From positions 2,356,001 through 2,420,000 of the forward strand of contig NZ_CP047452.1 of NCBI RefSeq assembly GCF_030440595.1: a stretch of DNA of 64,000 nucleotides, in the 5' to 3' direction. The notes below the pieces were generated by a model. It did not search any database, had not been told where the DNA came from, and worked only from the letters and a program-made list of their open reading frames with translations. This DNA is from Corynebacterium glucuronolyticum DSM 44120 (lineage in GTDB: Bacteria; Actinomycetota; Actinomycetes; Mycobacteriales; Mycobacteriaceae). Below are positions 8,380 through 62,951 of this stretch, one piece after another (position 1 is the first letter of the stretch; every line of letters begins with the position of its first letter). The translations under genes were made by a program, and so were the position numbers.

Positions 8380-9498
8380 CTACTCCTCGATCCGCTTCCC
8401 CGTCGTCGCGGAGAAGGCGTGCAGCATCCCCGGCTTGATCGTCAGCCGCACGGTGTCCCCGGGCTTCGGCGCCGTGTGGGGCGCGGTGCGCACGACAATA
8501 TTGTTGCTTGTCGACGCATCGGGGTTGCTGTCGGTGCCACTGGACAGGTTTCCTCCGCCGACGAGTGTCCCGTACAGGTAGGAATCACTGCCGAGCTCCT
8601 CGACGAAGTCCACCTTCACGGGGATCTGCCCGTTCGGGTCCACGTCCAGGGCCTCCGGGCGGAAGCCGAGGACGACCTCGGGGCCATCCACCTTCCCCAC
8701 GAGGGACTCTGGCAGCTCTACCTGCGCTTCTCCCAGCCGGGCGGTGCGGCCCTCCACCGTGAACGTGCCGAGGTTCATCGCCGGGGAACCAATGAAGCCC
8801 GCGACGAACTCGTTTTGCGGGTGCTCATACAGGTCGCGGGGCGTGCCCACCTGCTGCAGCACACCCTTATTCAGCACGGCAATACGGTCGCCCATGGTCA
8901 GCGCCTCCGTCTGATCGTGGGTCACATACAGCGTGGTCACGCCGAGTTCACGCTGCATCGAGGCGATCTGCGTACGGGTTTGCACACGCAGCTTCGCATC
9001 CAAGTTACTCAGCGGCTCATCCATGAGGAACACCTGCGGCTTGCGCACAATCGCACGCCCCATCGCCACACGCTGACGCTGGCCACCGGACAGCGCCTTC
9101 GGCTTACGATCCAAAAACTCCGTCAGATCCAGCGTCCGCGCCGCGGCCTCCACGCGCTCGTTGATCTGCGTCTTATCCACACCGGCGATCTTCAGCGCGA
9201 AGCCCATGTTCTCCCGCACCGTCATGTGCGGGTACAGGGCGTAGTTCTGGAACACCATCGCAATATCGCGATCCTTCGGCGGCACATTCGTCACATCCCG
9301 GTCCCCGATGAACACCTGCCCGGAGTTGACATCCTCCAGGCCTGCAAGCATGCGCAGGGTTGTGGACTTGCCGCAGCCCGACGGGCCGACGAGGACGAGG
9401 AACTCCCCATCCGCGATGTCCAGATTGATGCTGTCCACGCTGGGGGCGGTGGCACCGGGGTAGATACGTGTCGCATTCACGAAGCGAACTTCAGCCAT
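8380..9498 (-). CDS. musK: Carbohydrate ABC transporter ATPase (MsiK/UgpC type)
   Basis: 372 residues. Walker A GPSGCGKST at about 38-46, Q-loop FQNYALYPHMTVRENMGFAL, signature LSGGQRQRVAMGRA at about 137-150, Walker B VFLMDEPLSNLDAKLR, and switch histidine VTHDQTEAL. A C-terminal TOBE/regulatory domain follows from about 235. It would energise MusFG and, as with MsiK-type ATPases, could serve other sugar permeases (inference). RBS AAAGGAA is about 13 nt before the ATG. A 12-mer repeat GCGTCGACAAGC lies inside the gene, near its 3' end. Confidence 0.93.
   Translation of the reverse strand: MAEVRFVNATRIYPGATAPSVDSINLDIADGEFLVLVGPSGCGKSTTLRMLAGLEDVNSGQVFIGDRDVTNVPPKDRDIAMVFQNYALYPHMTVRENMGFALKIAGVDKTQINERVEAAARTLDLTEFLDRKPKALSGGQRQRVAMGRAIVRKPQVFLMDEPLSNLDAKLRVQTRTQIASMQRELGVTTLYVTHDQTEALTMGDRIAVLNKGVLQQVGTPRDLYEHPQNEFVAGFIGSPAMNLGTFTVEGRTARLGEAQVELPESLVGKVDGPEVVLGFRPEALDVDPNGQIPVKVDFVEELGSDSYLYGTLVGGGNLSSGTDSNPDASTSNNIVVRTAPHTAPKPGDTVRLTIKPGMLHAFSATTGKRIEE
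8506..8517 (-). repeat. 12-mer GCGTCGACAAGC, copy 1 (minus orientation)
   Basis: Exact copy inside musK, read there as A-S-T-S. One of ten exact copies in the window. Confidence 0.85.
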
Positions 9499-9641
9499 GA
9501 CCTTACTGTTTCCTTTACTTTCATTGGCAGGTACGTGCCAAACGATCCGAGTGAAAGAGGAGGGGCCATAAGCGACCCCACTCAGTAACCCAGGCTAGCC
9601 CGACAGCCCGGTCATAACCACAAAACGCCGTGTGATGTTTC

Positions 9642-9881
9642 TTACAGCGGCAGCAGCGGATCAATCGCATCCGCCGCCTCATCGATATCATCGAAACGCC
9701 CGGCGAGCTCACCTTTTGTGTCCAGAATTGCGCACGGGGAGCCGTCGAGAAGCGAAAAGTGTGCATCCTCAGATGCCTTCACAGCGAAGAACCCCCGCGG
9801 GGTGAACTCCTCGATGAGTTCTTCAAACTCATCGTCCGAATAGACCATCACAACATGTTCTGCATACTGAGGGAACAGCAT
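9642..9881 (-). CDS. Small acidic protein, unknown function
   Basis: 79 residues beginning MLFPQYAEHVVMVYSDDEFE, rich in D and E and net acidic, with no signal or membrane helix. GGAGGT lies 6 nt before the ATG at 9881; the ATG at 9884 is also in frame but only 3 nt from it. The upstream gene's TAA overlaps that first ATG, so translation is coupled to the deacetylase-like gene. The C-terminal half (AILDTKGELAGRFDDIDEAADA) looks like a compact alpha/beta fold. No family is recognised. The 142 bp between it and musK hold the musK promoter region. Confidence 0.7.
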   Translation of the reverse strand: MLFPQYAEHVVMVYSDDEFEELIEEFTPRGFFAVKASEDAHFSLLDGSPCAILDTKGELAGRFDDIDEAADAIDPLLPL

Positions 9882-9883
9882 CA

Positions 9884-10558
9884 TTACACCTCCACGTAGG
9901 TACTTGGCTTTGCCCCCAACTCTAGCGCCACCGCCACCGCCGCCGCGACATCTTTGGCCACCTTCGTCTTCACGAGGTTCCGCGCCGAGACACTCAGCCG
10001 GATCACGCCGCCCCGGCGCGCCGTCCTCTCGACGGAGCGGGTGATGGTGGAGCGCCACCAGCGGGAGGCGCCATACCCCTCCCCCACGGAGAGGTTTCGT
10101 GCCTGGACCAGGGTGTTTGTGTTCAGAATGTGGATGCCTTTGGTGGACAGTGCGCGGGTGAAGCCGAGCTCGGGGAGGACGGCGAGGGTGCCCTCCGAGA
10201 GGCGCCAGCGAGGTGGGGCGAAGATGGGCGTCGAAAAGCCGAGGCGCTCCATCTGGGCGACGGCACCGGTGAGGCGCAGGCGGGCCTCGTGGGCGCGGAG
10301 GGTGGCGAACTCCGCGCGGCGACCCTGGACGGCCTGGTCGAACCCGTTGAGAACAAAAGCGTCCCCAGCTGCGATTTTGCGCTCAAAAAAGCGCCGCGTA
10401 TCTGCGTCCTTGGCCAGGTGCCAGTTGCCGTCGATGTGCGGGGCGATGAGGAGGCTGACGGGAACACCCCACGCCTCCAGCTCGCGCATGAAGTGCGCCG
10501 CCGGCGTGCGGGTCTCCGTGAAGACGGAGGAAATAGATACCAAAAGGGTTGCGCTCAC
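9884..10558 (-). CDS. DUF2334-type polysaccharide deacetylase-like protein
   Basis: 224 residues from GTG at 10558 (GAGGGA just upstream; an in-frame GTG at 10573 is less likely). The beginning SATLLVSISSVFTET then VPVSLLIAPHIDGNWHL follows the DUF2334 pattern, a branch of the NodB-like deacetylase barrel. The middle has GDAFVLNGFDQAVQGRRAEF and PIFAPPRWRLSEGTL (the 'PP.W..S' strand). The metal-binding D-D-H triad of true deacetylases is not complete: SISS replaces DD and NGFDQ replaces the usual HG(Y/F). Catalysis may therefore be altered or lost. It is coupled to the small acidic protein downstream. Confidence 0.7.
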   Translation of the reverse strand: MSATLLVSISSVFTETRTPAAHFMRELEAWGVPVSLLIAPHIDGNWHLAKDADTRRFFERKIAAGDAFVLNGFDQAVQGRRAEFATLRAHEARLRLTGAVAQMERLGFSTPIFAPPRWRLSEGTLAVLPELGFTRALSTKGIHILNTNTLVQARNLSVGEGYGASRWWRSTITRSVERTARRGGVIRLSVSARNLVKTKVAKDVAAAVAVALELGAKPSTYVEV

Positions 10559-13768: not shown

Positions 13769-13889
13769 GACCTATTACTCTAGACCCATCAAAACCAATT
13801 CGCCACGTAGCCACCCGCCCCATGAGTGATACCGCACGCCCCACACCACCCCGTGCGACTAACGGTCTACCCCACCCAGGCCCGCGCGG

Positions 13890-13902
13890 TAGCGTAAAAG
13901 AC
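13890..13902 (+). promoter_or_regulatory. Leaderless-type promoter (-10 TAGCGT) of the exported-protein pair
   Basis: TAGCGT at 13890-13895 followed by 7 nt and then ATG at 13903; no Shine-Dalgarno lies between. The spacing fits transcription starting at the A of ATG. Confidence 0.5.
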
Positions 13903-14730
13903 ATGAAGCTCATCGCCCTCACGCTAGCGGCCACGCTCCCCATCAACTACACCGTCACCTTCACCCCCGACACGAACGAACCACTCGCCGGACAACCCCA
14001 AGCCTGGATGTGCACCATCACCCCAGAACCCCCCACGGGCAAAGAGTTCTTTACCGAACTACAGCGGGCCCGCACCGAGCTACGCACCAACCTCCTCCAC
14101 CGCTACCACGACCACGCCGAGGACATCACCGCCCTCGACCACCGGATCGCCTACGCCAACAAGTTCGGCCAATCAGAAGCAGCCGATAAAATCCTCGACC
14201 ACGACGTAGCGACCATGGCCCGCATCCTCACCGCCGACGGCTTCAAAGCCTCCGAACTGGACTTCCTTTTCTCGAGTATCCCCGCAGCTAGTACAGACAT
14301 TCCTCTCGGTGTGGTGGAGGATACCGCCGTTGGCGCCACCTACACCCGGGAGGCGGCCGCACGGACATCGGCGGATGAGCTCGCCGCCGAGCTGGAAGCG
14401 GCGCTTTCCCAGGATTCTCTCCTCGTGCCGTCAGACGCGTCGGAACCGTTGCAGGAGGAAGCGAGGCGCGTCGACAAGCGAGTGCGGGAGGAAGCGGCGA
14501 GAGTGAGGTTTGATGCCCCCTCCTACCACGAAGCGCTTTTGGCGTGTGAGCAGGGCATTGACGCGAGAAATGGGACGAGTGCGGGGTCTTTTGTGAGGGA
14601 GCCTGCCGGTGCGGAGTTTCGGCCTGTCGAGATTTTTGGGATTGTTGTTGGGGCGCTTAGTCTCACGGGGCTCATCGGCTGGCTGTACACTATTGCAAAA
14701 CACTTCGATGTGAGGAGGATCCTTCCATGA
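13903..14730 (+). CDS. Exported protein with Cys pair and C-terminal membrane anchor
   Basis: 275 residues. Starts MKLIALTLAATLPINYTVTF, a short signal-like segment. The first cysteine (37) is in AWMCTITPEPP, followed by a long, mostly helical charged region (TELQRARTELRTNLLHRYHD and EEARRVDKRVREEAARVRF suggest coiled coil). The second cysteine (215) is in LLACEQGIDARNG and the C-terminal membrane helix is IFGIVVGALSLTGLIGWLY with a basic tail. The layout and motifs match 2624-3214 and 57862-58653. A start at 13822 would place 27 unlikely residues before the signal. It overlaps the next gene by 4 bp (ATGA), so the two are co-expressed. Function unknown; probably cell envelope. Confidence 0.78.
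   Translation: MKLIALTLAATLPINYTVTFTPDTNEPLAGQPQAWMCTITPEPPTGKEFFTELQRARTELRTNLLHRYHDHAEDITALDHRIAYANKFGQSEAADKILDHDVATMARILTADGFKASELDFLFSSIPAASTDIPLGVVEDTAVGATYTREAAARTSADELAAELEAALSQDSLLVPSDASEPLQEEARRVDKRVREEAARVRFDAPSYHEALLACEQGIDARNGTSAGSFVREPAGAEFRPVEIFGIVVGALSLTGLIGWLYTIAKHFDVRRILP
14468..14479 (+). repeat. 12-mer GCGTCGACAAGC, copy 2
   Basis: Inside the exported-protein gene, read there as part of R-V-D-K-R. Confidence 0.85.
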
Positions 14731-20845: not shown

Positions 20846-20857
20846 GCGTCGACAAGC
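20846..20857 (+). repeat. 12-mer GCGTCGACAAGC, copy 3 (intergenic)
   Basis: Lies directly against the pqo terminator and is preceded by GGGGAGGGAGGG; followed by AAAAAC as at copy 5. Confidence 0.85.
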
Positions 20858-22662: not shown

Positions 22663-23462
22663 TAGTGACGTATCCCCTTTCTATCGTTTTCTCCCATGGT
22701 AGGCGTTTTCGTCACCGCATGCGCGGCAATGATCGGTACCCCACAGTGCTGCAGAATATCCGCCTTCACGGCGTACACCCGCTCGATGAGTTCAGGGGTG
22801 ATGACCTCGTTGGGAACACCCTGCGCGAGGATCTCGCCGCAGTGCAAAACGATGAGTTCGTCGCACATGCGGCAAGCAAGGTTGATGTCGTGAATGGCGA
22901 CAAGGGCAAGGCTGTTGTCCTCGTGCGCCTTCTTCCGCACCGTGTCCAGCACGAAAAGCTGGTGGTGGAGGTCGAGGGCGGAGGTCGGCTCGTCGAGAAG
23001 CATGAGCGCCGGTGTCCCCACCATCATCTGTGCCAAAGCGACGAGTTGTCGCTGGCCACCGGACAGTTCTGACAGGTAGCGGTGGGCGTAGGCATCCATC
23101 CCCAGTCGGTGCATGACCTCCGCTGTGTGCTCGACGGGGTTGGCTACCGCTTCTCGACGGCTAGTAATCAGCACCGCTTCAAAGGCCCGCAAGGCTGCGG
23201 ACTCGGGAAGGCCCTGGGGCACGTACCCGATCGCCTTGCGGCGAGCGCGGGGAGGAACCACCTGGGCGTCGACAAGCAAAGAAACCTCACCCGAACGAAC
23301 CGGATGCAGGCCAGCGACCGTCTGCATGAACGTCGATTTGCCCGACCCATTCGGGCCGAGGACACCGACCACCCGGCCGCCGGTAAGTGGCGCAACCGTC
23401 ACGCCGTCCAGCACCCGGTGGCGACCGTAACCCGCAACCAGATCGCGAATCGCTAACTCCAC
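22662..23462 (-). CDS. Siderophore/heme-type ABC transporter ATPase
   Basis: 266 residues from GTG 23462, with AGGAGG 8 nt upstream; the start lies inside the last codons of the permease. Walker A GPNGSGKST, signature LSGGQRQLVALAQM, Walker B LMLLDEPTSALD and switch VAIHDINLA. FepC/FhuC-type family, partner of a FecCD permease. Longer in-frame starts to 23888 run antisense-like through the permease and are rejected. Its stop overlaps the pqo start by one base. Confidence 0.9.
   Translation of the reverse strand: MELAIRDLVAGYGRHRVLDGVTVAPLTGGRVVGVLGPNGSGKSTFMQTVAGLHPVRSGEVSLLVDAQVVPPRARRKAIGYVPQGLPESAALRAFEAVLITSRREAVANPVEHTAEVMHRLGMDAYAHRYLSELSGGQRQLVALAQMMVGTPALMLLDEPTSALDLHHQLFVLDTVRKKAHEDNSLALVAIHDINLACRMCDELIVLHCGEILAQGVPNEVITPELIERVYAVKADILQHCGVPIIAAHAVTKTPTMGENDRKGIRH
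23266..23277 (+). repeat. 12-mer GCGTCGACAAGC, copy 4
   Basis: Inside the iron-transport ATPase gene, antisense to it (the gene reads L-V-D-A there). Followed by AAAGAAAC. Confidence 0.85.
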
Positions 23463-25894: not shown

Positions 25895-25906
25895 GCGTCG
25901 ACAAGC
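25895..25906 (+). repeat. 12-mer GCGTCGACAAGC, copy 5 (intergenic)
   Basis: Directly abuts the tRNA-Thr terminator, followed by AAAAAC like copy 3. Confidence 0.85.
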
Positions 25907-25930: not shown

Positions 25931-25936
25931 TGAGAG

Positions 25937-29677: not shown

Positions 29678-30361
29678 ATGTTTGTTATTTCTGATTTCGA
29701 CGGAACGCTGGCGGAGTTCAGCACGGATCCGATGAACGTTCCTATCAACCACACGGCGATGCGCGCCCTCGACGAGCTCGCCGCGCTTCCTGGGGTTCGG
29801 GTCGCTATTTTGTCCGGGCGGTCTTTGGAACATCTCACTCAGCTTGTCGACGTTTCCGACGCGGTCATTCTGGCCGGCTCCCATGGGGCAGAGACGTTGG
29901 GCTTGGACACGGTTCCTTGCGCTGAACAGCAGGAACAGTTGAAAAAGCTGGACCAGGAGCTAGATAAGCTCCTCCACGGTGGTGCCTGGGTGGAGGTCAA
30001 GCCTTTTGGGCGCGTCCTCCACACGCGGGCAATGACCTCCGGTGCGGCAGAGCTTGAAGCCCAGGCGAAGCGCATCCCCTTTGGCGGCAGGTTGCAGGAG
30101 GGCAAGGCCGTGGTGGAGTTCTCCGTCTCCAATGCGTCGAAAGGCGACTGGATCCGCGCGAACCGCAAGCCGGGTGAAAGCGTCATTTTCCTTGGCGACG
30201 ATGTCACCGATGAGACGGGCTTCGCCGTACTGGCCGACGGCGATACGGGCATCAAAGTCGGCGCGGGCGAGACGAAGGCAACCGTTCGCCTCGCCGACGT
30301 AGAAGAAGTGGGCCACTACCTCACAGATCTCGTCGAATCCCTGCGGTCCGCCCAGGAATAA
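29678..30361 (+). CDS. otsB: Trehalose-6-phosphate phosphatase
   Basis: 227 residues, HAD superfamily. Motif I SDFDGTLAEF at residues 5-14, motif II LSGRSLEHL, the lysine in SNASKGDWIRAN, and motif III FLGDDVTDETGF. It completes trehalose synthesis after OtsA, 8 bp after the lipoprotein gene. Its last 41 bp overlap the convergent regulator gene. Confidence 0.92.
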   Translation: MFVISDFDGTLAEFSTDPMNVPINHTAMRALDELAALPGVRVAILSGRSLEHLTQLVDVSDAVILAGSHGAETLGLDTVPCAEQQEQLKKLDQELDKLLHGGAWVEVKPFGRVLHTRAMTSGAAELEAQAKRIPFGGRLQEGKAVVEFSVSNASKGDWIRANRKPGESVIFLGDDVTDETGFAVLADGDTGIKVGAGETKATVRLADVEEVGHYLTDLVESLRSAQE

Positions 30362-36384: not shown

Positions 36385-36861
36385 CTAGTAGACGAGCGCA
36401 GTCGCTACCGCAGCTCTCCCCTCACCGGAGCCGGTAAAGCCCATGTGGTCCGTCGTCGTTGCGGAGATGGACACGGGGCAGCCGAGAATCTTCTCTATCG
36501 CGGCTTCCGCCTCCGCTCGGCGCGGCCCCATCTTTGGGGTTTGACCCACGAGCTGGCAGGCGACGTTACCGATGGTGACCCCCTCCTGCTCGAGCTTTGC
36601 TCGAGCAGCCTTGAGCAAAGCAGTACCAGAAATGCCTTTCGTTTCCGGGAGGTCCACACCGACGAACGAACCGAGGTCTCCTAGGTGGGATGCGGACAAC
36701 AGGGCGTCGACAAGCGCATGGGCGACGAGATCCCCGTCGGAGTGGCCCTCACAGCCGTCGTCGGCGGGGAAGGATAGGCAGGCGATCATGCAGGGCTTGC
36801 CGGGTTCGATGCGGTGGGCGTCGAAGCCGATGCCGGTTCTAGGGAGTTTCTGTAGTTTCAC
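36385..36861 (-). CDS. ispF: 2-C-methyl-D-erythritol 2,4-cyclodiphosphate synthase
   Basis: 158 residues. Zinc and substrate residues in [32 protein letters not shown] and [14 protein letters not shown]. Fifth step of the MEP isoprenoid pathway, whose product also supplies decaprenyl carriers for envelope synthesis. Overlaps ispD by 23 bp and is followed by cysS. Confidence 0.96.
36704..36715 (+). repeat. 12-mer GCGTCGACAAGC, copy 6
   Basis: Inside ispF, antisense to it (the gene reads A-L-V-D-A). Confidence 0.85.
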
Positions 36862-41423: not shown

Positions 41424-42116
41424 CTAGCGGATATTGAACGTCACCGCGTCGGAGTGGTTGTCGCCGACGAGGGTGTGAAGGTAGTAGCTGCCCGGGGGAA
41501 CCTGCTGGCGGTTGTCGCAGGCATTCGGGGCGGACCCGGCGCGGGACCAGACCGCCTGGTAATACTTGTCAGTGCCCTTGGCAAAGGTCTCCCTGCCGCG
41601 ACCCTCGGAATCGTTGCAGTCAATATCGCTCCACACGCGCTCATTGGTGGCGAGGTTGTACACCTCAAAGGCGAGCGGGTGATCGTTGAGGTTGATCTCG
41701 CAGTCGGCACCCGTCGGGTTGTGGACGGTGGCGTAGAACGTGGGTCGCTGGTCGCCGGTGTAGTTCGGCTGGTCGGTGCTTGCCGTGACCTCCAGGTCCT
41801 TCAGCTCACACGTTTTCTTGTTGGCTGCGGCGTTGGTCGTGGTGGTGTGGCTTGTCGACGCTCCGGTGGTTCCCGTTGTCGTCTCCGTCACCGTCGTCGC
41901 CGTCGAGGTCTCCGTGGTGGTGGACGGCTGCGACGTCAGCGACGGCTCAGAGGTCTGGGACACGGTGGTTTCGGCGGCCGGGTCGGCCTGCTTATCCTTG
42001 CCACCGAGCAGGTTAAATAGCAGCAGAATGAGGGCAATGACGACGAGCACCACGACAATGGCGGCGACGCGTCGGCGGGTGTAGATAACGTCCGGCAGGG
42101 GCCTCTTGTTGCTCAT
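41424..42116 (-). CDS. Membrane-anchored exported protein with Ser/Thr-rich linker
   Basis: 230 residues. Basic N terminus (MSNKRPLPDVIYTRRR), one membrane helix (VAAIVVVLVVIALILLLFNL), a linker of about 60 residues that is mostly T, S and E, and an extracytoplasmic beta domain with four cysteines (KTCELKDL, ADCEINL, DIDCNDSE, NACDNRQ), probably two disulfides. ATG 42116 preferred over GTG 42122 because TAAGCT lies 7 nt upstream (leaderless). In M. tuberculosis a similar membrane protein (Rv3587c) precedes the carbonic anhydrase and mutY genes. Confidence 0.8.
   Translation of the reverse strand: MSNKRPLPDVIYTRRRVAAIVVVLVVIALILLLFNLLGGKDKQADPAAETTVSQTSEPSLTSQPSTTTETSTATTVTETTTGTTGASTSHTTTTNAAANKKTCELKDLEVTASTDQPNYTGDQRPTFYATVHNPTGADCEINLNDHPLAFEVYNLATNERVWSDIDCNDSEGRGRETFAKGTDKYYQAVWSRAGSAPNACDNRQQVPPGSYYLHTLVGDNHSDAVTFNIR
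41850..41861 (-). repeat. 12-mer GCGTCGACAAGC, copy 7 (minus orientation)
   Basis: Inside the linker-encoding part of the membrane-anchored protein gene, read there as A-S-T-S. Confidence 0.85.
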
Positions 42117-42785: not shown

Positions 42786-43628
42786 GTGGAATTCGACTAC
42801 TTACCCCTCATTTCGTGGTACCGGCGTTGCGGCCGGGATCTCCCCTGGCGTGAAGAAGGCACGAGTGCGTGGGCAGTCCTCGTCTCCGAGGTCATGAGCC
42901 AACAGACCCCCGTCTCCCGCGTCATCCCCGCCTGGCGGGAGTGGATGGACAAGTGGCCGACCCCTGCGGATCTCGCCGCCGCGGACACCGCCGACGTGCT
43001 GCGGTCCTGGGGCCGCCTCGGGTACCCGCGGCGCGCGCTGTGGCTCAAACAGGCAGCCGAGAAGATGGAGGGTACCGTACCCCGAAGCGTCGACAAGCTC
43101 CTGGAGCTACCGGGAATCGGGGACTATACGGCAAGGGCCGTGGCGGCGTTCGCGTTCGGTGCGCCCGTGCCCGTGGTGGATGTGAACGTGAGGCGGGTGC
43201 ACTACCGGCTGTTCGACGCCACCTACCTCACCCCACCCGCAAGAAAGGGGGACCTAGCACGGATTACGGCGCCAGAACCGGAGCTTTCCGTGGCGCTCAT
43301 GGAACTCGGGGCGCTCGTGTGCACGGCGACGAACCCCCAATGCGAGTCCTGCCCGCTGGCTGACCAGTGCGCGTGGGTGGCGTCCGACAAGCCGATGCCG
43401 ACGGAAGCCGAACAGGCAGAGAAGAGGAAGCGGGTGCAGAAGTTCGCGGGCACCGACCGGCAGGTGCGTGGCAAGATCATGGCGCTGCTGCGGGATGCCG
43501 ACGAGCCACTTGCCTCCATCGACCATGCGTGGCCCGATGCGGCGCAGCGCTCCCGGGCGCTTTACAGCCTGCTGGAGGATGGTCTGGCGGAGCAGCTTCC
43601 CGACGGCCGGTACTGCCTCCCCCGCTAA
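42786..43628 (+). CDS. mutY: A/G-specific adenine glycosylase
   Basis: 280 residues. Catalytic Glu in VSEVMSQQTPVSRV, helix-hairpin-helix LPGIGDYTARAVAAFAFG, catalytic Asp in VVDVNVRRVH, and the 4Fe-4S ligands C-x6-C-x2-C-x5-C in VCTATNPQCESCPLADQC. Removes A opposite 8-oxoG. Shorter than E. coli MutY (about 350) with a reduced C-terminal domain, as in other actinobacteria. Confidence 0.94.
   Translation: MEFDYLPLISWYRRCGRDLPWREEGTSAWAVLVSEVMSQQTPVSRVIPAWREWMDKWPTPADLAAADTADVLRSWGRLGYPRRALWLKQAAEKMEGTVPRSVDKLLELPGIGDYTARAVAAFAFGAPVPVVDVNVRRVHYRLFDATYLTPPARKGDLARITAPEPELSVALMELGALVCTATNPQCESCPLADQCAWVASDKPMPTEAEQAEKRKRVQKFAGTDRQVRGKIMALLRDADEPLASIDHAWPDAAQRSRALYSLLEDGLAEQLPDGRYCLPR
43087..43098 (+). 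repeat. 12-mer GCGTCGACAAGC, copy 8
   Basis: Inside mutY, read as S-V-D-K-L just before the helix-hairpin-helix. Confidence 0.85.
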
Positions 43629-48400: not shown

Positions 48401-48840
48401 AAGAGGTTTTTCACCTCCGACTGCGTCGTCGTATTGGCGGTCAGACACATGATGCGAAGTGCAGTGATCTCCCCGCCGTCGTCGTCACTGAAGTGGAGAC
48501 CTACCCCACTCCACATCGGTCCGGGGCGCAGGAAGGATCGGGTAACATCATCAAGATCCGCGTCGTGTTCCTTTTGCCACGCACCACGGCAGTAGGTGAC
48601 CAGATCTCGGCCGGATTTCTTCCCGGATTCGGTTGCTGCGGCGTTAAAACGGTGACGTCCGGGGGAACCCAGGATGGTCGAAACCGCGTCGATAAGCGTG
48701 GACTTGCCCGACCCAGAGGGGCCGAAGATGAGGAACCCGGCGCGCGCGACGTCGACCGTGTGGAGACCGTTGAATGTACCCCAGTTGTACACCTGCAGGG
48801 TGGTGAGGCGGTACTGGCCTGGGGCGATGGTGCTAGTCAT
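45484..48840 (-). CDS. jetC: Wadjet SMC-like ATPase JetC / MksB
   Basis: 1118 residues. Walker A GPSGSGKSTLIDAVST (about 34-49), a long coiled coil in two arms (about 240-480 and 640-900) around a hinge, signature LSGGQAQKLSSFCLA, and Walker B TIILDEAFDRADAEF. MukB/MksB-type condensin that extrudes DNA loops. ATG 48840 overlaps jetB by 8 bp. Confidence 0.94.
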   Translation of the reverse strand: MTSTIAPGQYRLTTLQVYNWGTFNGLHTVDVARAGFLIFGPSGSGKSTLIDAVSTILGSPGRHRFNAAATESGKKSGRDLVTYCRGAWQKEHDADLDDVTRSFLRPGPMWSGVGLHFSDDDGGEITALRIMCLTANTTTQSEVKNLFLLLPGKVSLVDCEELGKHSAGQADAKKQFPDLIAINRNLSPFSAALRKRLGIADEKAIELLQRTQSAKTLGDLNQLMRDFMLPEPATFKIADDAAENFTELKTAHATVVTARNQINKLRPIRDSADKHAELTKTIRDYTMDLDAVPVYANTQRLGFARSDLRTNQGELDDAQASLETVQEKAAELAERVTNLHVAIRGEKDDGITAAEHRRDKLRDECARVENEAKKFFTVLSELTPFQPASQEDFINLRVQLEEEIADIEARQQTYGDTRTDIYSRLSTLKQAIDQGEKDIRMAEKFRSNMDPRLLRARERICEITGIARGSLPFVADLIHIAPAFAQWQPAAERVMGGFARMLLVPDEFYPQVAAAVDATHLGTKLTYQDIDAKLASLRPQAISARSLAATIVVEHGRYEGWIQHQLSTCFDHVRAESIEEFCSHRRAVTKAGQLRDGSRHVKDDRSRIDDRSRWVLFENSDARIDVLTAQQRQRKNELNAVAEEQKQFESKAKADAARIVSARRALETEKFAQIDVSGAQNLLDEAQKDLDALVDNNDRLAGLQAELRTALGLTNLQETEKANLQQRIGVARDRVSEATATIERLTSQLAGAEPLPPDVERRIAGRMKAYARAINASNIDAATIEVERKIRADKSAAEGQCSNLHNSIKLAMNRYLDAWPERQGDLTPEVEALGDFLAELQRLEDDDLPRFESNFRELLFDQTNTHLGRLRREIATAASSIRKEIDRLNESLTLVDFYPGRTLQIEVRESQPAEARDFARKLAAAVDGTLENDEGAAEQRFERLSAVIEDLVESDTTTARQRKLRLDTRWHVAFYGVEVDADGNRGAVYDSAEGLSGGQAQKLSSFCLAAALRFRLTGMGEPPAKARKSRVVIGEDVYPHYGTIILDEAFDRADAEFTRTSMEVFDRFGFHMILATPEKLLQPVEDYIGGVLMVECPDRKHSQTAALTIEEAETYADD

Positions 48841-52826: not shown

Positions 52827-53671
52827 TGGTCTTCTCCTTTAATCGCATAAACCATGATGTCTTCAATCGTGGGTCTACCAGCTTGCACACCAGTAGGAAC
52901 TGCCCCGGTACGGACGATTACTTCTTGACCAAAATCATGACGGCGACGCCCTAATACTTGCGTGGAATCAAGCTGGTTAGCCTGCTCGTTGGTTAGCGCG
53001 ACTATTCGCCAAGCCTCTAAGAGTTCGTCTTTTTGCTCCATTAACTTCAACTTGCCGTTGTGGATGAAAGCAATGTAGTCAGCTGCTTTTTCAATATCGG
53101 AGACGATGTGGGAAGAAAACAGGATAGAGTGGCTCGGATCTTCGATGAATTCGAGCATAATGTCGAGTACCTCATCGCGGATCACCGGATCTAAACCACT
53201 GGTTGCTTCATCAAAAATCAGCAAATCTGCCGCATGGGACAGCGCCATCGCTAACCCGAGTTTCATACGCATGCCGCGAGAGAGCTGATCAACTCGCTTG
53301 TCAGAAGCAAGTTGGAAGCGCTGCCGGTAACTGGCGAAGACTTGTGAATCCCAATTCTTGTAAAGGCGCTTGCCAAACTCGCAAGCGTTCTTAACGGTGA
53401 AATTGGCTGGCAGGCTGATGTCGTCGAAAACCACCCCCACCCGCTCACGCGCTTCTGGATGACCCGGGCCAGCGGGCTGATCGAGCAGACGAATCGTGCC
53501 CGCATCAGGGCGTGCTAGGCCAAGGATGAGTCGTAGTGTCGTGGATTTACCCGCACCATTTTCACCCACGAAGCCCACGATTGAGCCCTGAGGAACTTGA
53601 AGATTAAGCGGACCGAGCGTGAAGCCTGGATAGTTTTTCACCAGACCGCTGATTTCAATACTATTCATCAC
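52823..53671 (-). CDS. ABC transporter ATPase (YtrB/PmtA-like)
   Basis: 282 residues. Walker A GENGAGKST (about 37-45), signature LSRGMRMKLGLAMAL (degenerate LSGGQ), Walker B LLIFDEATSGLDP, and switch FSSHIVSDIEKAA. A C-terminal regulatory extension of about 70 residues follows. Similar GntR-ATPase-permease sets include the phenol-soluble-modulin exporter of staphylococci (pmt). Overlaps the regulator gene by 11 bp. Confidence 0.85.
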   Translation of the reverse strand: MMNSIEISGLVKNYPGFTLGPLNLQVPQGSIVGFVGENGAGKSTTLRLILGLARPDAGTIRLLDQPAGPGHPEARERVGVVFDDISLPANFTVKNACEFGKRLYKNWDSQVFASYRQRFQLASDKRVDQLSRGMRMKLGLAMALSHAADLLIFDEATSGLDPVIRDEVLDIMLEFIEDPSHSILFSSHIVSDIEKAADYIAFIHNGKLKLMEQKDELLEAWRIVALTNEQANQLDSTQVLGRRRHDFGQEVIVRTGAVPTGVQAGRPTIEDIMVYAIKGEDQ

Positions 53672-54038
53672 TTACTCCCAACACGTCAATAAGTTCTTTC
53701 AAATCGGCAATAGATAGGCCAGCGGCTGGAGCTGCCGCGAGGGCAGATTTCAAATGGTCTTCGACCTTTTTGCGCTGTTCTTCCTTGAGTAACTCGGTGT
53801 TCTTGGAAGCAACGAAACTACCCCGCCCCTGCACAGAATCAATAAAACCCTCAAGTTCTAGTTCGTCGTAGGCACGCTTGGTAGTAATAACCGACACGCG
53901 AAGCTGGGACGCCAAACGCCTAATCGACGGCAGCTTCTCGCCAGGAACAACCTGGTCGTTAATGATCGCAGCCTTGAGCTGATCCTTAATCTGGGCATAA
54001 ATCGGGTCAGGACTTGCGTTGCTGACAACAATATCCAT
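53661..54038 (-). CDS. GntR-family regulator (YtrA subfamily)
   Basis: 125 residues from ATG 54038 (AGGAGG 5 nt upstream). Winged helix PIYAQIKDQLKAAIINDQVV..LPSIRRLASQLRVSVITTKR..GRGSFVA and only a short helical C-terminal dimerisation piece, which defines YtrA. It probably represses its own ABC operon by binding the palindrome at 54052-54072. Confidence 0.88.
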   Translation of the reverse strand: MDIVVSNASPDPIYAQIKDQLKAAIINDQVVPGEKLPSIRRLASQLRVSVITTKRAYDELELEGFIDSVQGRGSFVASKNTELLKEEQRKKVEDHLKSALAAAPAAGLSIADLKELIDVLGVSDE

Positions 54039-54051
54039 AAACACCTCCTAG

Positions 54052-54072
54052 TGTTCATAGTGTACATGAACA
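54052..54072. promoter_or_regulatory. Palindromic operator of the GntR/ABC operon
   Basis: Perfect 7-bp inverted repeat TGTTCAT / ATGAACA separated by 7 bp, 13 bp upstream of the regulator's start. A minus-strand TACACT within it could be the -10. Confidence 0.7.
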
Positions 54073-54192
54073 GTTGGCTGATTTGGGCGAGACGCCCAAA
54101 CTCTAGGAAAACGCTTAAACGAGACCGCTGCGGCACTCAGTAGTGCTAGGTCAAGCCATAAAACCATGCTTGATTAGGAGAAACGCTGCAAA

Positions 54193-54265
54193 CGCTAACG
54201 CAAAACGCGATACCCGCTAACGCAGGCTATTTTCCACACCCCCTCGGAGCGCACTCGCTAACGCA
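54193..54265 (+). repeat. Three iteron-like repeats CGCTAACGCA
   Basis: Exact copies at 54193-54202, 54215-54224 and 54256-54265; spacings 22 and 41 bp, about two and four helical turns. A TTTTCCACA, one base from a DnaA box, lies between copies 2 and 3 (about 54230-54238). Confidence 0.7.
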
Positions 54266-54270
54266 ACCCA

Positions 54271-54710
54271 CTACTTATCAAATACGGAGTCCAGTTGGAC
54301 CCTTTTACCGGCACCGGCACGTTCATGGTGCGCTTGCAGCAGTCGGGGATCATCACACCTAAAGATATGGTCTGCAAGTACGCCAGCGAGTTACATGCCA
54401 CGGAGCTCATGCTGCTTGCCTACTATGTGGCAGCTGTCAACATTGAATCCACCTACAATGCTCTCAAACTGGAGGAAATAAACGAAACAGTGAGCCCGAT
54501 CCGAACTACGTACCGTTTGAAGGGATCGCCCTTGCCGATACGTTCCAAGCCTCGGAAGATGGTGATCCCCTGGACTTTGAAGTGTTTAGGGACAGCAACG
54601 ACCGAATACGGAAACAAAAACAAGCCCCCATTCATGTTATCGTGGGTAAACGTTGGTTGGGCTTATTGATACGAGATAACGATGTGTGCGAGTACGCGCT
54701 CGCAGCGTAA
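54271..54710 (+). pseudogene. Remnant of a type ISP restriction-modification enzyme
   Basis: IKYGVQLDPFTGTGTFMVRLQQSG carries SAM motif I (DPFTGTG), then HATELMLLAYYVAAVNIEST, both typical of LlaBIII-like type ISP methyltransferases. After LKLEE the frame shifts and continues as EPDPNYVPFEGIALADTFQASED...FRDSNDRIRKQKQAPIHVIVG, stopping at 54710 where the catalytic GNPPY should follow. The helicase and specificity parts are gone. Non-functional. Confidence 0.78.
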
Positions 54711-54858
54711 CCACTAGTCCAACGGCGGAATCCAGACCCCTCACCCCAATCCACGTGGCTGTTAACGGCTCGTAGTCGACGTTCTTCATGCTTCCCGTCG
54801 CGCGTTTGCACCTAGTTCAACGGCCACAAGCAGAGCCGTCGAAAGATATGCAGCGGTG

Positions 54859-55085
54859 TCAAAAGGTTAAGCATTCGTGCTGGAGAGTCCATACTTGGAG
54901 GCCCAGCGGTGCTGACGCGATGAGATTCTTTCGGCTTCGGTTGATGACGATCGCTACCGAGTACTGTGCCCGGGTCACCGCTACGTAGAATGCGCAAGCG
55001 CTCTTGTCTGCTACAACCGGCATCGCCATCCGGGTCAACCACGGAGCGTGATTTCGGGAACCCGGGTGCGAAAAGGAAGAGATCC
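54859..55085 (-). pseudogene. Remnant of a UvrD-like helicase C terminus
   Basis: Minus-strand frame ending at TGA 54859 reads HAPWLTRMAMPV then SACAFYVAVTRAQYSVAIVI, where YVAVTRA is UvrD/Rep helicase motif VI, followed by about 30 residues to the stop. No further helicase motifs are found upstream. Part of it (55016-55070) is repeated at 57580-57635. Confidence 0.65.
55016..55070. repeat. Dispersed repeat, copy A
   Basis: About three quarters identical to 57580-57635 (ACCGGCATCGCCAT, GTCAACCA, GCGTGAT shared). The pair flanks the DUF262 gene in direct orientation. From 55086 to 55370 no gene is recognised. Confidence 0.6.
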
Positions 55086-55370
55086 GGCGCGACTAAGAAC
55101 ACCCGCTTGGGGAGCGGTGGACTTCGAAAATCCGGTTCGGCGGGAGGCAACCGGGTGGCTCGATCTGTGTAACCTGCCGGGCAAGGGTGATGTCAGGATC
55201 CATTTCTAGTTCTTGGGTGAGAAACCGAGACAGTGCATGGACAGACTCGCCCGCTGAGAGGGCCGCCCGGATTGAATTGGCTTGGATCTGGCATATCACC
55301 CGGACAGTTCTAGGATCTCTTGCCTCCACAGACCACGATCCAGGGCCTCAGTACTGAGACATACGACACA

Positions 55371-57101
55371 TCATTTCAGCAGATCAGCCGCTTCCAGGTA
55401 ATTGATGAAGGAATCAAAGATCAGATCCGTACGCTTTTTGATATCTGCTTCAGTGAAATCGGACTTTTTATCGACGAGGTCCAGCAACTCCTGGTTCTTT
55501 GTCGGTTCGGCGTTCTTCTTGCGACCACTCTCGCCAAGATAAAGGGACCGCTTCGCCTTGAACTGGTAGTCCGAAGCGCGAACATTAATCCGCTTTTCCA
55601 GGACCGCTTTATTGCCCAACGCCTCAAGCAGGTTCTCATCCGAAAGGGTGTTTTCAAACGCAGCGCGCTTTTTTGCATAGATATGCTCGATATCAAGTTT
55701 CACGTCGACTTCAAAAAGCTGTTGCTTCGGATTCTCGAAAGCCCACCACACCAACATTGACTTGGTCACTGGGCGGTTGTTCTTGAACTGAAATACACCG
55801 AGTTGCTTGCGGAGTGCGTCAGTCGAAAACTTGTTGCCCTCGAAAGTCACTTCCTGCCCGTTGACTATCTGAATCATCGCCGGGAACACTGGCGTACGCA
55901 GTGCGTTTACGCCAGATCGGACCACCGAATAGGCCCAGATGAAACCTGTAATGCGCTCAAGGAAGCGGTAGAAAGCATCTTCTTCTAGGTTTCCATCCGC
56001 GTCGTGATATTGCATGAAATAGACCGACACCAGGTAAGTCCACATACTGTTGGGCGCGAAATCAAGAACAAAGAGACGGTGCAGAATACGATCAGAGAAA
56101 CCTTCTCGCGTGTAAACGCACTTCCAGAATTGGGCGAGAACTTCCAGGCGGCCGAGAATCTCATCGTTACGCAACAATGAGTATGAATTCTTCTCGTAGA
56201 AATCTCTCAAGCCTTGTGTCGTGGTATCGCGGATTCCCATCTTTGCGCGCTCATAGTACATATAACGTGCAAACAGCTCGTCCATTGGATTGTTACGCGA
56301 CTTTTGAAAGATTGAAGAACAACAAGTCTCCAGCTCTCTCCACCGTTTGGAAAACTCATCTTTTTCGCCCTTGTCGTTGTAGAACTTGTACAACTGAGAC
56401 TTAAAAATATCAGCGTCAGCCAGCGGCAGGCCGCGGTCATTGAGCGTTGAGAAGATTCGCAGCGCAGTCCTTTGTGACTCAGCCTCGATTGGGAGAAGGA
56501 CCACGTTATTCAGGATTCTCGTGGCAAGGTGCGGAGTATAAGAGGGATACTCTTGGATGAACTCATCAATCTTCTTTACAAAAAAGTTAAACGCCTCGGC
56601 GTAACGACTCTTTTGACTACCACTAGCTTCTCCAGTACGCAGGATCGAAAGAAAATCCTGCTTATCATCGTCGGAGGCTACCTCTGAGTCAATTTTGAGC
56701 TTATCAGTCAGTGCGTTACCGAACTCATCCGTTTTCCACACGCACTTCTCAATCAGTTGCCTGGTCTTTTGAGTGTTACGGTCCTTCATTTTCTCCAGAC
56801 GCGAGTAATAGGCGCGAAGCAAGAGCATGAGCGTGGTGAGACGCTGTTGGCCGTCGATGATCTCTAGCTTCTTGTCCTCGTTGCGGAACGTAACGATGGG
56901 CCCAAGGAAGTACTCTTCATCCTCGTCAAAATTTTCCGCATCCCCATCAGGAATCGCGAAACTAAAGATGTCATCCCACAGCGTAGACAGCTCGTCTTCT
57001 TCCCACGCGTAAGGACGTTGGTAATCGGGAATGAGAAAGTCTGACTTCTTATCGGAGAATAGATCAGCCACGGTTTTTTGGTCGATATTCAGCTTGGACA
57101 T
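55371..57101 (-). CDS. DUF262/DUF1524 (GmrSD-like) type IV restriction or defence protein
   Basis: 576 residues. DUF262 domain with IPDYQRPYAWEEDELSTLWD and the nucleotide-binding IIDGQQRLTTLMLLL (about 80-94), plus FSTLNDRGLPLADADI. Near the C terminus KLDIEHIYAKKR..LGNKAVLEKRIN..KAKRSLY is a DUF1524 HNH-type nuclease core. GmrSD family proteins cut modified phage DNA using NTPs. The lower GC than the housekeeping genes suggests transfer. Stands alone, flanked by the 55016/57580 repeat pair. Confidence 0.85.
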   Translation of the reverse strand: MSKLNIDQKTVADLFSDKKSDFLIPDYQRPYAWEEDELSTLWDDIFSFAIPDGDAENFDEDEEYFLGPIVTFRNEDKKLEIIDGQQRLTTLMLLLRAYYSRLEKMKDRNTQKTRQLIEKCVWKTDEFGNALTDKLKIDSEVASDDDKQDFLSILRTGEASGSQKSRYAEAFNFFVKKIDEFIQEYPSYTPHLATRILNNVVLLPIEAESQRTALRIFSTLNDRGLPLADADIFKSQLYKFYNDKGEKDEFSKRWRELETCCSSIFQKSRNNPMDELFARYMYYERAKMGIRDTTTQGLRDFYEKNSYSLLRNDEILGRLEVLAQFWKCVYTREGFSDRILHRLFVLDFAPNSMWTYLVSVYFMQYHDADGNLEEDAFYRFLERITGFIWAYSVVRSGVNALRTPVFPAMIQIVNGQEVTFEGNKFSTDALRKQLGVFQFKNNRPVTKSMLVWWAFENPKQQLFEVDVKLDIEHIYAKKRAAFENTLSDENLLEALGNKAVLEKRINVRASDYQFKAKRSLYLGESGRKKNAEPTKNQELLDLVDKKSDFTEADIKKRTDLIFDSFINYLEAADLLK

Positions 57102-57579
57102 AGCACCGCCTCTTCTGGATTATGAGAAAATTATATCTACAACCGACACACCCGTGTGTCGATTTGTTTTCATCCGTGCACCCAAGTTCCCGCCGCAGTC
57201 TAGAGACTTACATCGCTGTGGACTAACGAGGCCATTCAACACTCAAGATCATCGGACATATTTACGCTAACATCCACATAACGTGAGACTCCGCAGCGAA
57301 AGTCTGCGAGTCAGGTTCCTATTGAGCTGTTGAAACATGCCACCGCTTTCGGTGGCACCAACCTCCGGATCAGTTCTAGCCGGGGACAGCAACAAGCCAA
57401 ACTGAAGCCAGCGATTAGCCCCACTACAAAACAGGTAACGAAAGCCCCTTTAACCTGCCCCGAAGAGAGACAAAGCCATCAACTTCAGTTCCCCACCGTA
57501 GGGCTAACCAACAAATAATCGGCTTTCTTAACCTCCAGACGATAACAGCCGACCCCACCCCGCCGCGTTCCCTGACGCC

Positions 57580-57635
57580 ACCGGCATCGCCATCTATGTC
57601 AACCAAGGGGCGTGATCTCCTGGACCCCGGGCGCG
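57580..57635. repeat. Dispersed repeat, copy B
   Basis: Degenerate second copy of 55016-55070; on the minus strand it still encodes HAPWLT.MAMPV, so it is a decayed copy of the same helicase-like sequence. Confidence 0.55.
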
Positions 57636-57686
57636 TCTATTAGGAGACTCGGCGCGCCGCGCGGTGACATGGTGGGGGAGAGGTGG

Positions 57687-57698
57687 GCGTCGACAAGC
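57687..57698 (+). repeat. 12-mer GCGTCGACAAGC, copy 9 (intergenic)
   Basis: Preceded by GGGGGAGAGGTGG. A degenerate relative in the same context (GAGAGGTGGGCGTCGGGAAG, 58709-58728) follows the gene at 57862. Confidence 0.85.
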
Positions 57699-57713
57699 TA
57701 GAGGAAGGGCGAG

Positions 57714-57758
57714 CGTCGGGGCCGTGAACGTCGGGGCCGTGAACGTCGGGGCCGTCGT
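57714..57758 (+). repeat. Tandem repeat, 3 x 15 bp
   Basis: CGTCGGGGCCGTGAA twice exactly, then CGTCGGGGCCGTCGT. Confidence 0.85.
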
Positions 57759-57861
57759 AACCGTCGGGGGTAGTTCTTTGGGACTACTTAAAGATGCCTG
57801 CCAAATTCATGTGTAGCGCGTACGCTAAAAGTAACACCCCCAAAACCGGAAGGTTCCCACC

Positions 57862-58653
57862 ATGAAGAAGATCGCAGCCGTCACCACGGCAGTCGCTGTC
57901 AGCCTCGCGGGCGTTGCAGTTCCGCAGGCTGAGGCGTATCAAATCACCGTCAACCCAAATGGCACGTGCACGTTCACTGGTACCCAAGCCGACACGGACT
58001 ATGGGATCCAAGCCACCAAAGATTTTTGGCTTGAGATCGCACGCGCCTACGACTCTTACACTCCCGGCACCTATCAAGACCTTGCAAGCCTGTGGACAGG
58101 GAAATTGCCCACCACCAACGAGACGAAGATCTACAACGTCACTATGTCGCTGTACAACAAGACACGCGACAAATCAGGCGGGACCGAACTGGCCCAAATA
58201 ATCATGGACGCGTACGGCAAAATCGCCGACGCCGCAATCCAAATGAACAACACTCCAATCGGACAGTCCACCACGTTCACCAAAGCAAAAGCCCAGGAAC
58301 TCATTGACCGCGGAGTGAGCCCGAAGCCCGTTTTGCCACCGGAAGCAAAGTTTGGCATCCCCGAGGTGGACAACATGCTGAGCAAGATGATCGACGCTCA
58401 GTACGCTTACATGAACAAGCTTGAAAAGCTGGCACTAATCAACGCGCGGTGGTGCGTCGAAGGCAGATCGGGCGATACCAGCTTCGCCGCGGGTGCCGAA
58501 GCCGCAGGGCTCTCCGAGGAGGCCGCCATCGGGCTGAGCGTCACCGCCGGCGTGCTCGCGCTTGTGGGGATCATCGCCGCGCTCATCACCTACGTGCCGG
58601 CCGTGCGCGCACTCATGCCGCCGCAGATCCTCGCGCTGCTGCCCGCTGCGTAG
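57862..58653 (+). CDS. Exported protein with Cys pair and C-terminal membrane anchor
   Basis: 263 residues. Signal peptide MKKIAAVTTAVAVSLAGVAV..AEA, first cysteine (36) in NGTCTFTGT, helical extracellular domain (YGIQATKDFWLEIARAYDSY, FGIPEVDNMLSKMIDAQYAY), second cysteine (198) in ARWCVEGRSG, then a membrane helix SVTAGVLALVGIIAALITYV and a hydrophobic tail RALMPPQILALLPAA. Architecture and motifs match 2624-3214 and 13903-14730. GGAAGG upstream. It lies inside the mobile region, unlike its two relatives. Confidence 0.8.
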   Translation: MKKIAAVTTAVAVSLAGVAVPQAEAYQITVNPNGTCTFTGTQADTDYGIQATKDFWLEIARAYDSYTPGTYQDLASLWTGKLPTTNETKIYNVTMSLYNKTRDKSGGTELAQIIMDAYGKIADAAIQMNNTPIGQSTTFTKAKAQELIDRGVSPKPVLPPEAKFGIPEVDNMLSKMIDAQYAYMNKLEKLALINARWCVEGRSGDTSFAAGAEAAGLSEEAAIGLSVTAGVLALVGIIAALITYVPAVRALMPPQILALLPAA

Positions 58654-61536: not shown

Positions 61537-61690
61537 CCCCGTTCACCCTATGCGCCGCCACCAGTAGCGGCAATGCGCACAACAACCACTACCCGAACCA
61601 TCACCAGATCACCGACCAAGCCGGGCTGGAGCAGGTGGCCAGGTTGGATCACGTCGCCACCACCTACACCAACGACCGGCGCTCGTCTGC
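61533..61690 (+). pseudogene. Truncated phage replication-type protein, N terminus only
   Basis: ATG 61533 with AGGAGG upstream, overlapping the previous stop (ATGA). About 50 codons (MTPFTLCAATSSGNAHNNHYP.. then LDHVATTYTNDRRS) resembling the N terminus of phage VapE/primase-type proteins. It is cut at the junction with the methyltransferase gene. Confidence 0.5.
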
Positions 61691-62873
61691 GAGCTTCATC
61701 TCCTCGGAAAACTTATCGTGGTATTTTTTCAGCCGCCTTGTTTTCTTAAGCGGAGTCATCTCTGGATCCGTCAGGATCGATTCCAGCTCCTGCTTCAAAC
61801 TGTCAATGAAAGGGGGGTCGATGACCTTGTGGATGTTTTCCGGGCTCGTATAGTGCATCCCGCCCTTGGCACGGGTCTCCGGGTTTAGTGTGGACTCAAA
61901 TACCCCACCAAAGATGGTTGGAGAGATTTTTGACCAGTCGGTGTCACGTGAGATCTCGTTTGCCAGTAAAGAGACAATGTCCTCAGTGAATTGCGGAATC
62001 TCAATGTCTTCCTCGCGGAATAATCCGCCGTTCACATAGGGGAACTGCGATAGCTCGTCCGAAATATACGCATCACGATCATCATAGGGAGTATCCAGCA
62101 CACGAAAGAACTCGATCATCTTTCCCCGCATGTATTCAGTAGGTACCCCAGAGAGATAGCGGTACAACGAATCCTTACCGAAGAGTCCCACATCCTCCGC
62201 GAATAAGCAGAATACGAGCCGAACACATAACACGTTGAGAGAATGCCGACTACGTTCGCTCTCCGGATCTATGTATTGAGCAGCCAAACTCTTGTACAGC
62301 ATGCCAACGAGTTCGCCCGCATGCATAGAAAGCTTGCTGCTCTTTTACCCTGCGGGCTTTTTGTCCTGTGACAATGAAATCTAGGAGATGAAACTGCTCT
62401 GGCAGCTCCTCCAGCGAGAACTCAACGTAGTTCTCTGCCGGACGCTCTTGGTCTAGATCATGGATGCGGAAATGGGAGAAGTTCGAAACACTGATGTAGT
62501 CAGGCCGGTTCGAGTTCTTCATCTCGTCGGCGTATGCCTTAGCCTGTTCGAACGGGGTTACCAAGCGCCCCTGGCGCATTTCTGGCTTACCCAGATTAAC
62601 CCCCAGAGCTTTCTGCTCAATCAGTGTTTTCGCTGAGGGAATATGGGCATCAATAAAGCCTCCAGTGCTCACTCGCTCTTCGAAATGCACCGCCGTGACG
62701 ACATCTTCTAGGCCTACTACCTGCGATAGGAGCTGAATCCAGAAAGAAGCTGTATCTCCTTTTTCATAGCCACGCCCTGACCACGTTGCTACAAATGACC
62801 GCGCGGCATCCGCACGCTCCAGTCTTTGTTCAACCGCGCTCTTAACTTTGCTATTTCTGGTGGCTGCTGCCAT
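61690..62873 (-). pseudogene. 5' fragment of the MmeI-like DNA methyltransferase/nuclease
   Basis: From ATG 62873 (TACCAT 7 nt upstream, leaderless). The N terminus has a nuclease-type signature, FIDAHIPSAKTLIEQK (D-x10-ExK), as in MmeI-class type IIG enzymes. A one-base frameshift near 62330-62340 separates KARRVKEQ from KLSMHAGELVGMLYKSL. The following helical domain (SRHSLNVLCVRLVFCLFAED, FPYVNGGLF, SPTIFGGVFESTLNPETR, GGMHYTSPENIHKVIDPPF) is typical. It stops before the DPACGSGNF motif. Continues, minus its core, at 51011-51885. Confidence 0.82.
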
Positions 62874-62939
62874 AGAGCTTATGGTACCGACCGTACCCAC
62901 CGAACTACAGCGGAATTGAAAGATTTCGGCGACCACAAA

Positions 62940-62951
62940 GCGTCGACAAGC
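62940..62951 (+). repeat. 12-mer GCGTCGACAAGC, copy 10 (intergenic)
   Basis: About 67 bp upstream of the methyltransferase start; the adjacent 62874-63082 region holds no gene. Confidence 0.85.

Follow-up and report, generated by a model that had tools for sequence, protein, structure and literature searches.

The 12-mer GCGTCGACAAGC occurs in ten exact copies, eight on the plus strand and two on the minus strand, in a 64,000-nucleotide stretch of Corynebacterium glucuronolyticum DSM 44120 DNA (positions 2,356,001 to 2,420,000 of contig NZ_CP047452.1; hereafter the window). We consider it fairly probable that this 12-mer is the species' own form of a DNA uptake sequence that is used across most of the genus. 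With somewhat less assurance, we lean towards a broader proposal, in which words with a GGCRTC core and a G-rich 5' flank would form an uptake-sequence language of Corynebacterium's own, read by a putative receptor of the Tad-pilus machine, with repeated dialect switches, made by the same single-base change at scattered sites, setting the limits of gene exchange between species.

A preliminary description of the window had listed the ten copies, and their coordinates and strands all proved correct. In 100 dinucleotide shuffles of the window, the 12-mer appeared 0.01 times on average and once at most, and 16 matches were found with one mismatch, compared with 0.73 expected. The excess extends to the whole genome (2.87 Mb, one contig), which contains 139 copies (70 forward, 69 reverse) and a single occurrence of the control, the 12-mer read backwards.

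The element is kept at the DNA level, in coding as well as intergenic DNA. According to the context analysis of 92 of the 139 copies, based on a simple gene finder made for this work, 64 were genic and 28 (30%) intergenic, while the non-coding share is 16%. Genic copies were antisense in 38 cases, 33 of them in one frame, and sense in 26, with 16 and 9 in two frames; the other frames accounted for six copies. Substitutions were counted in 462 kb of the genome, picked largely for holding copies and including 63 exact ones. Single substitutions occurred at position 1 (T 17, C 11, A 2) and at position 8 (A 9, G 4, T 4), while each of the remaining ten positions showed 0-2 cases of any one substitution. 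Within the called genes of the sample, 19 of 97 Leu-Val-Asp tripeptides and 11 of 37 Val-Asp-Lys tripeptides carry the 12-mer, compared with 0.28 and 0.53 expected from codon usage (about 68-fold and 21-fold excess), which bears out the earlier claim that codon or protein constraint cannot explain the copies.

The surroundings of the copies are purine-rich, as had been noted for several intergenic ones: the 92 contexts have 61% purine over 30 bases on the upstream side and 59% over the same length downstream, against 47-53% beyond 150 bases. On the motif strand these flanks are also poor in T, and the same holds for sense, antisense and intergenic copies. In other species the form is GGCRTCGNNAAGC, preceded by a G-rich 5' flank: G stands immediately before the motif at 86% of 111 sites in other records of dialect A and at 83% of 130 sites in genomes of dialect B (dialects defined below). 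The G content of the 30 bases upstream is 47% for A and 41.5% for B (114 and 131 sites), compared with 33% and 30% at 200-300 bases and with 36% upstream of near-motif control words in A, and no G bias was found downstream of either motif. Two small sets, from genomes G080 (13 sites) and G241 (15 sites), have 57% purine upstream.

The word recurs across the genus in dialect forms. Exact GCGTCGACAAGC is present in 220 of 242 genomes of the genus, with 0-294 copies per genome and 0-9 for the reversed controls. The wider word GCRTCGNNAAGC was counted in 35 named Corynebacterium records, which came from a Tad ATPase alignment search and are not a random sample; it has 45-1122 copies and exceeds its reversed control in all 35, for example in C. 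striatum (701 copies, control 26), C. tuberculostearicum (551, control 17) and C. pseudodiphtheriticum (298, control 16), the weakest being C. otitidis (45 against 26). Six genomes outside the genus (Dietzia, Millisia, Rhodococcus, Actinomycetospora, Saccharopolyspora and Mycobacterium) gave no clear excess of this word, with 24-77 copies against controls of 40-149; the sole mild excess among them was that of Actinomycetospora (75 against 52).

The dialects comprise A (GCGTCG), B (GCATCG) and others built on GGCGTC. They were sought by word counting, with no prior motif, in genomes poor in the exact 12-mer, which gave GCATCGNNAAGC forms in G004 and G001 and ATGACG[CT]CGCG in G012; of the two forms of the complement of the latter, CGCG[GA]CGTCAT, one contains GCGTC. 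GCATCGNNAAGC reaches 156-646 copies in 17 of the 242 genomes, and the same 17 hold 0-7 exact A words. ATGACGYCGCG has 644 copies in G012 and fewer than 50 in each remaining genome. Ten genomes without abundant A or B words were sampled further, at 80 kb each, and revealed dispersed GGCGTCAAT in G080 (13 copies), dispersed GGCGTCGGA in G241 (15 copies) and a weaker GTGGCGTCG in G007 (14 copies, about 2 expected), together with artefacts in two genomes and nothing clear in five.

The word GGCGTCRRWWA, whose matches include part of dialect A, reaches high counts in many further genomes, and in several of these exact A words are few or absent, for example G018 (266 copies, control 20), G213 (312, control 25) and G122 (278, control 18). 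Most of the 17 genomes with strong B counts have it at about the control level or lower, the exceptions being G032 (46, control 13) and G185 (30, control 7). Some form of the motif is present in roughly 200 of the 242 genomes by a hand tally that was not scripted; a genome was counted when, for one pattern, its copies exceeded the reversed control by at least 20 and were at least three times as many. G080 also has a second dispersed word, AATGTCGTT, with eight copies in its 80 kb (L121-L123); AGA or AAA comes next in most cases, and the copies sometimes form close direct or inverted pairs. Strong words of two other genomes were dropped as candidate dialects: that of G131 belongs to a CRISPR-like array with 61-base spacing and at least seven copies (L112:795-1171), and that of G018 to a local repeat whose units contain GGAGCACCCGG (L133:17477-18070).

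Where two closely related lineages can be aligned site by site, one dialect takes the place of the other. The B genome G001 (three regions, 18 B sites) was compared with the A genome G253 (C. tuberculostearicum), in which 14 of the sites align without gaps and four have no aligned stretch; five further G253 stretches do not overlap those of G001 and so lie outside the comparison. At the 14 aligned sites, position 3 in G253 is G in ten, A in three and C in one, while the other eleven positions are identical in 11-14 of the 14 (the two free positions in 11 and 12), so that seven counterparts are full A motifs and two are full B motifs. As a control, GCATC words outside the motifs were taken from these alignments; some of them may count more than once in overlapping fetches. 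They kept A in 111 of 145 cases and had G in 21 (Fisher p = 1.2e-5). In a further two A genomes from the G253 lineage, position 3 is G in 9 of 13 and 9 of 14 sites. In the reverse direction, 12 aligned A sites of G253 were listed, some places appearing twice in overlapping fetches, and these correspond to seven full B motifs and no full A motif in G001. A separate alignment covered the Tad region, which also forms part of the G001/G253 comparison, in the B strain KPL1814 and C. tuberculostearicum; at 7 of 7 B sites the latter shows G in position 3. Scattered sites thus keep the word yet change the same base, which argues that something reads the word in trans. A phylogeny of 54 sequences of the helicase encoded next to the Tad locus (one gene, support values uninspected) also shows A and B lineages interleaved.

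Six plasmids from C. striatum, C. tuberculostearicum and C. aurimucosum, all three species of dialect A, also largely lack the element: 203 kb of their sequence has one copy against 47.9 expected. This expectation uses conspecific chromosome density and rounded genome sizes (Poisson 8e-20), and the p-value is generous because the plasmids have related RepA genes and a G+C content of 0.52-0.59. Phage BFK20 has one copy in 42 kb, counted irrespective of its host's dialect.

Candidate uptake genes are nearly universal in the genus. ComEC matches were found in 241 of the 242 genomes, and a Tad-type ATPase model matched 239, with 232 above the cut-off; matches below it also arise in unrelated control genomes. 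In a subset of genomes, complete Tad loci and comEA-comEC pairs were also read: the Tad loci L105 and L109 contain CpaE-like, TadA, TadB, TadC, Flp-like and TadE-like genes, assigned from their order and by reading, with a family match for the ATPase alone, and comEA and comEC are adjacent in the source genome. The C-terminus of its ComEA (L245) closely resembles that of C. glucuronolyticum (L282). Among the matches listed, the ComEC match of G123 has an internal TGA, and this genome is without a clear motif; the ComEA match of G007 (L290) also has an internal TGA, yet G007 carries 103 copies of GGCGTCRRWWA against 25 reversed.

The Tad ATPase score was also considered as a predictor of the motif and rejected. 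According to hand reading, 30 genomes with best E-values of about 1e-109 to 1e-125 have at most three exact A copies, and several of these (e.g. G018, G037, G213 and G241) have GGCGTC-type words. Six genomes with still weaker matches had been set aside (G014, G074, G094, G167, G168 and G189), of which four carry 34-136 copies, a point against such a predictor, and the split by score is confounded with kinship. Likewise, a high score does not predict a new dialect, as just G080 showed one among five such genomes sampled.

The preliminary description had proposed four roles, namely a strand-polarised architecture motif, a Chi-like recombination hotspot, an uptake sequence and a methylation or restriction site. 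Of these, an uptake sequence fits best, because the words are self-specific, lie on both strands and switch dialect, and because ComEC and Tad genes are near-universal. The element in outside DNA would be recognised by a receptor at the cell surface that probably belongs to the Tad pilus or is attached to it; DNA carrying the element would be pulled in, handed to ComEA and ComEC, and recombined. Biased uptake of DNA from kin could then spread and maintain the copies. A change in receptor specificity would lead to the change of one base of the element at many sites, and the resulting new dialect would act as an exchange barrier against former kin. DNA uptake itself, like every step past the reading of the word, is what we infer from sequence.

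Several observations weigh against an uptake sequence. By the hand tally, about 40 of the 242 genomes have no clear motif despite a ComEC match, and G185, the assembly of which is 90% complete, has no ComEC match and a weak ComEA-like match (8.5e-5), yet carries 160 B copies. The density in the source genome, one copy per 20 kb, is low for an uptake sequence, and the literature searched holds no report of natural transformation in Corynebacterium. As to the receptor, neither the proteins of the Tad locus nor ComEA nor residues 1-480 of ComEC showed convincing dialect-specific residues. Dialect-discriminating columns number six in CpaE, one in TadB, eight in TadC (missing from two B lineages), one each in Flp and TadE, two in ComEA and one in ComEC; these are unconvincing because the unrelated control TopA has six. 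A Lys/Ser difference in ComEA, predicted beforehand to determine the dialect, failed because A lineages nested among B also have Ser, the residue following kinship. Few sites are shared between more distant species (2 of 9 for L156 and L193, 1 of 7 for L148 and L193), the upstream bias is absent in dialect C (103 sites, single genome), and the six plasmids are not independent draws, given their related RepA genes. Finally, close pairs of copies are not clearly enriched (nine in 1.45 Mb, 6.2 expected), so that pairing into hairpins or terminators was rejected. Five of the nine pairs are reverse-forward, four direct and none forward-reverse, some being the same place in related genomes; at least one forward-reverse pair (G250 C1 32463/32488) is present among the matches listed for the named records. 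Inverted pairs of DNA uptake sequences (DUS) or uptake signal sequences (USS) that form terminators are common in known systems and not defining.

Chi, the FtsK-orienting polar sequences (KOPS) and the architecture imparting sequences (AIMS) are, like the word found here, short dispersed chromosomal words with some strand bias. A Chi-like recombination signal, at which a helicase-nuclease (e.g. of the AdnAB/AddAB type) would pause and load RecA, appears unlikely to us. It would account for a dispersed, chromosome-specific word with a G-rich flank on one strand, since chromosomes would retain the motif and plasmids would have no need for it, and also for a weak arm bias (88 of 139 copies). However, repeated dialect swaps among near relatives are unexpected if a conserved repair enzyme reads the word, and ten fixed bases at one copy per 20 kb are long and rare for Chi. 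The RecBCD type is disfavoured in particular, because RecC (PF04257) was found in none of the ten genomes searched with the Escherichia coli control positive; AdnAB/AddAB was not searched for.

We give slightly less credit to a site of chromosome organisation or segregation, either KOPS/AIMS-like or bound by a condensin or nucleoid protein. The 139 copies are spread over the whole chromosome with near-random spacing (mean 20.6 kb, standard deviation 21.4 kb), and the best two-arc split of orientation covers 91 of 139 (permutation p = 0.022). The contig begins with dnaA-, dnaN-, recF- and gyrB-like genes (named by reading, with no family search); with the origin placed at position 1 and the terminus assumed opposite, the 88 arm-concordant copies make up 63% (p = 0.002). 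Concordance does not rise from origin to terminus, being 30/49, 32/48 and 26/42 by thirds, and the 28 intergenic copies are divided 14:14, so that, unlike for KOPS, neither strong polarity nor a rise to the terminus is seen. The strand polarity first described stands within the window, where eight of ten copies point the same way, but the genome-wide ratio of 70:69 and the weak, flat arm bias led us to reject it as the main signal, and a KOPS/AIMS-like role is unsupported. An organisation site would also leave the dialect swaps between close relatives unexplained.

The scarcity of copies on the six plasmids could instead mean that the word is a mark of self, recognised by a defence or anti-plasmid system inside the cell that spares motif-bearing DNA, and the dialects would then mark lineages. 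This appears more doubtful still: no candidate system was found, although no search for one was made, and the plasmids examined are maintained in their hosts with hardly any copy of the motif. A by-product of mutation or codon usage, or a decayed or mobile repeat family, is very improbable, as no point in its support was found, the reversed words give far smaller counts, the 12-mer surpasses codon expectation by about 68-fold and 21-fold, the flanks of the copies are not conserved as those of repeats, and sites shift their base in place.

Compared with the proposed Corynebacterium uptake sequence, the USS of Pasteurellaceae is a different word with different flanks, and the receptor and pilus type differ too. 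Both have hundreds or more chromosomal copies (PMC2346458; see also PMC1626085 and PMC7811141), and USS likewise show an orientation preference in reading frames, here 38 antisense against 26 sense. The DUS of Neisseriaceae, as described in the accessible parts of PMC3630211, have dialects with a fixed core and a variable remainder; like the present word, they are short and non-palindromic, have many copies per genome in genic and intergenic DNA, and vary among relatives, with 5'-CTG-3' as the shared core where A and B here share GCRTC. The Corynebacterium word differs in its sequence, in belonging to a Gram-positive mycolate genus with a Tad-type rather than type IVa pilus, in its lower density in the source genome and in showing no clear hairpin pairing, and no ComP counterpart was found. 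Micrococcus luteus, also an actinobacterium with Tad-type ATPases, ComEA and ComEC, was reported to transform via Tad/Flp pili with ComEA/ComEC (PMC6370729, PMC6667448, partial texts). The term "uptake sequence" is absent from the available portion of PMC6667448 and occurs in that of PMC6370729 for Neisseria and in a reference title alone.

According to the abstracts, uptake sequences have been described in Neisseriaceae and Pasteurellaceae, and the literature searched reports none for Corynebacterium or other actinobacteria. Searches combining Corynebacterium with uptake sequences, competence, Tad pili, KOPS or Chi returned nothing on this word, and the papers containing the 12-mer verbatim concern other subjects, judging by their titles; PMC5217627, in the passages available, mentions Corynebacterium for CRISPR repeats only. 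If the uptake-sequence reading is true, this would be an independent case in a mycolate-walled Gram-positive genus of an element known mainly from two Gram-negative families, and many corynebacteria would be predicted to be naturally transformable, with placement of the right dialect on DNA as a simple genetic handle. It would also help to explain which species can exchange genes, and the receptor question would become approachable by comparing sister lineages of opposite dialect.

The copies in the window and four one-mismatch variants are given in Table 1.

Table 1. Exact copies and variants of the 12-mer in the window, with their gene context.
Feature	Position	Strand	Context
Exact copy	8506..8517	-	within MalK-like ABC transporter ATPase gene (8380-9498 -), on the gene's own strand
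Exact copy	14468..14479	+	within called gene 13903-14730 (+)
Exact copy	20846..20857	+	between called genes 19965-20666 (-) and 20911-22662 (-); followed by AAAAAC
Exact copy	23266..23277	+	in weakly scoring called open reading frame 23082-23456 (+); may be intergenic
Exact copy	25895..25906	+	intergenic, 24503-25717 (-) / 26081-27520 (+); adjoins terminator-like hairpin 25911-25931
Exact copy	36704..36715	+	antisense within YgbB-family gene 36385-36861 (-), presumably IspF
Exact copy	41850..41861	-	within called gene 41424-42122 (-); sub-threshold mucin-like match at most
Exact copy	43087..43098	+	within HhH-GPD DNA glycosylase gene with iron-sulfur domain, 42786-43628 (+), which we take to be MutY-like
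Exact copy	57687..57698	+	intergenic, GmrSD-type gene 55371-57101 (-) / 57862-58653 (+)
Exact copy	62940..62951	+	no called gene there
Variant, T at position 1	4009..4020	+	substitution of tolerated kind
Variant, A at position 8	10228..10239	+	substitution of tolerated kind
Variant, T at position 8	48686..48697	+	substitution of tolerated kind
Variant, A at position 1	29842..29853	-	rare substitution, membership doubtful

The shorter word GTCGACAAGC had been said to add copies at 4011 (+) and 29846 (-); the first is right, and the second is off by a few bases, the match being within 29842-29853 (-). A longer reading of the gene around copy 14468 (13822-14730) has no Pfam match. AAAAAC follows both copy 20846 and copy 25895, as had been noted, while the claim that both abut terminators holds in part: the hairpin beside 25895 is on the minus strand, and no hairpin next to 20846 appears in the scan; an inverted repeat, AAACGGCC...GGCCGTTT, is nonetheless readable right after that copy. 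Finally, the region 50000-58000 of the window, with a G+C content down to 0.51-0.53 around the GmrSD-type gene and a single exact copy of the 12-mer (57687), is possibly an island.

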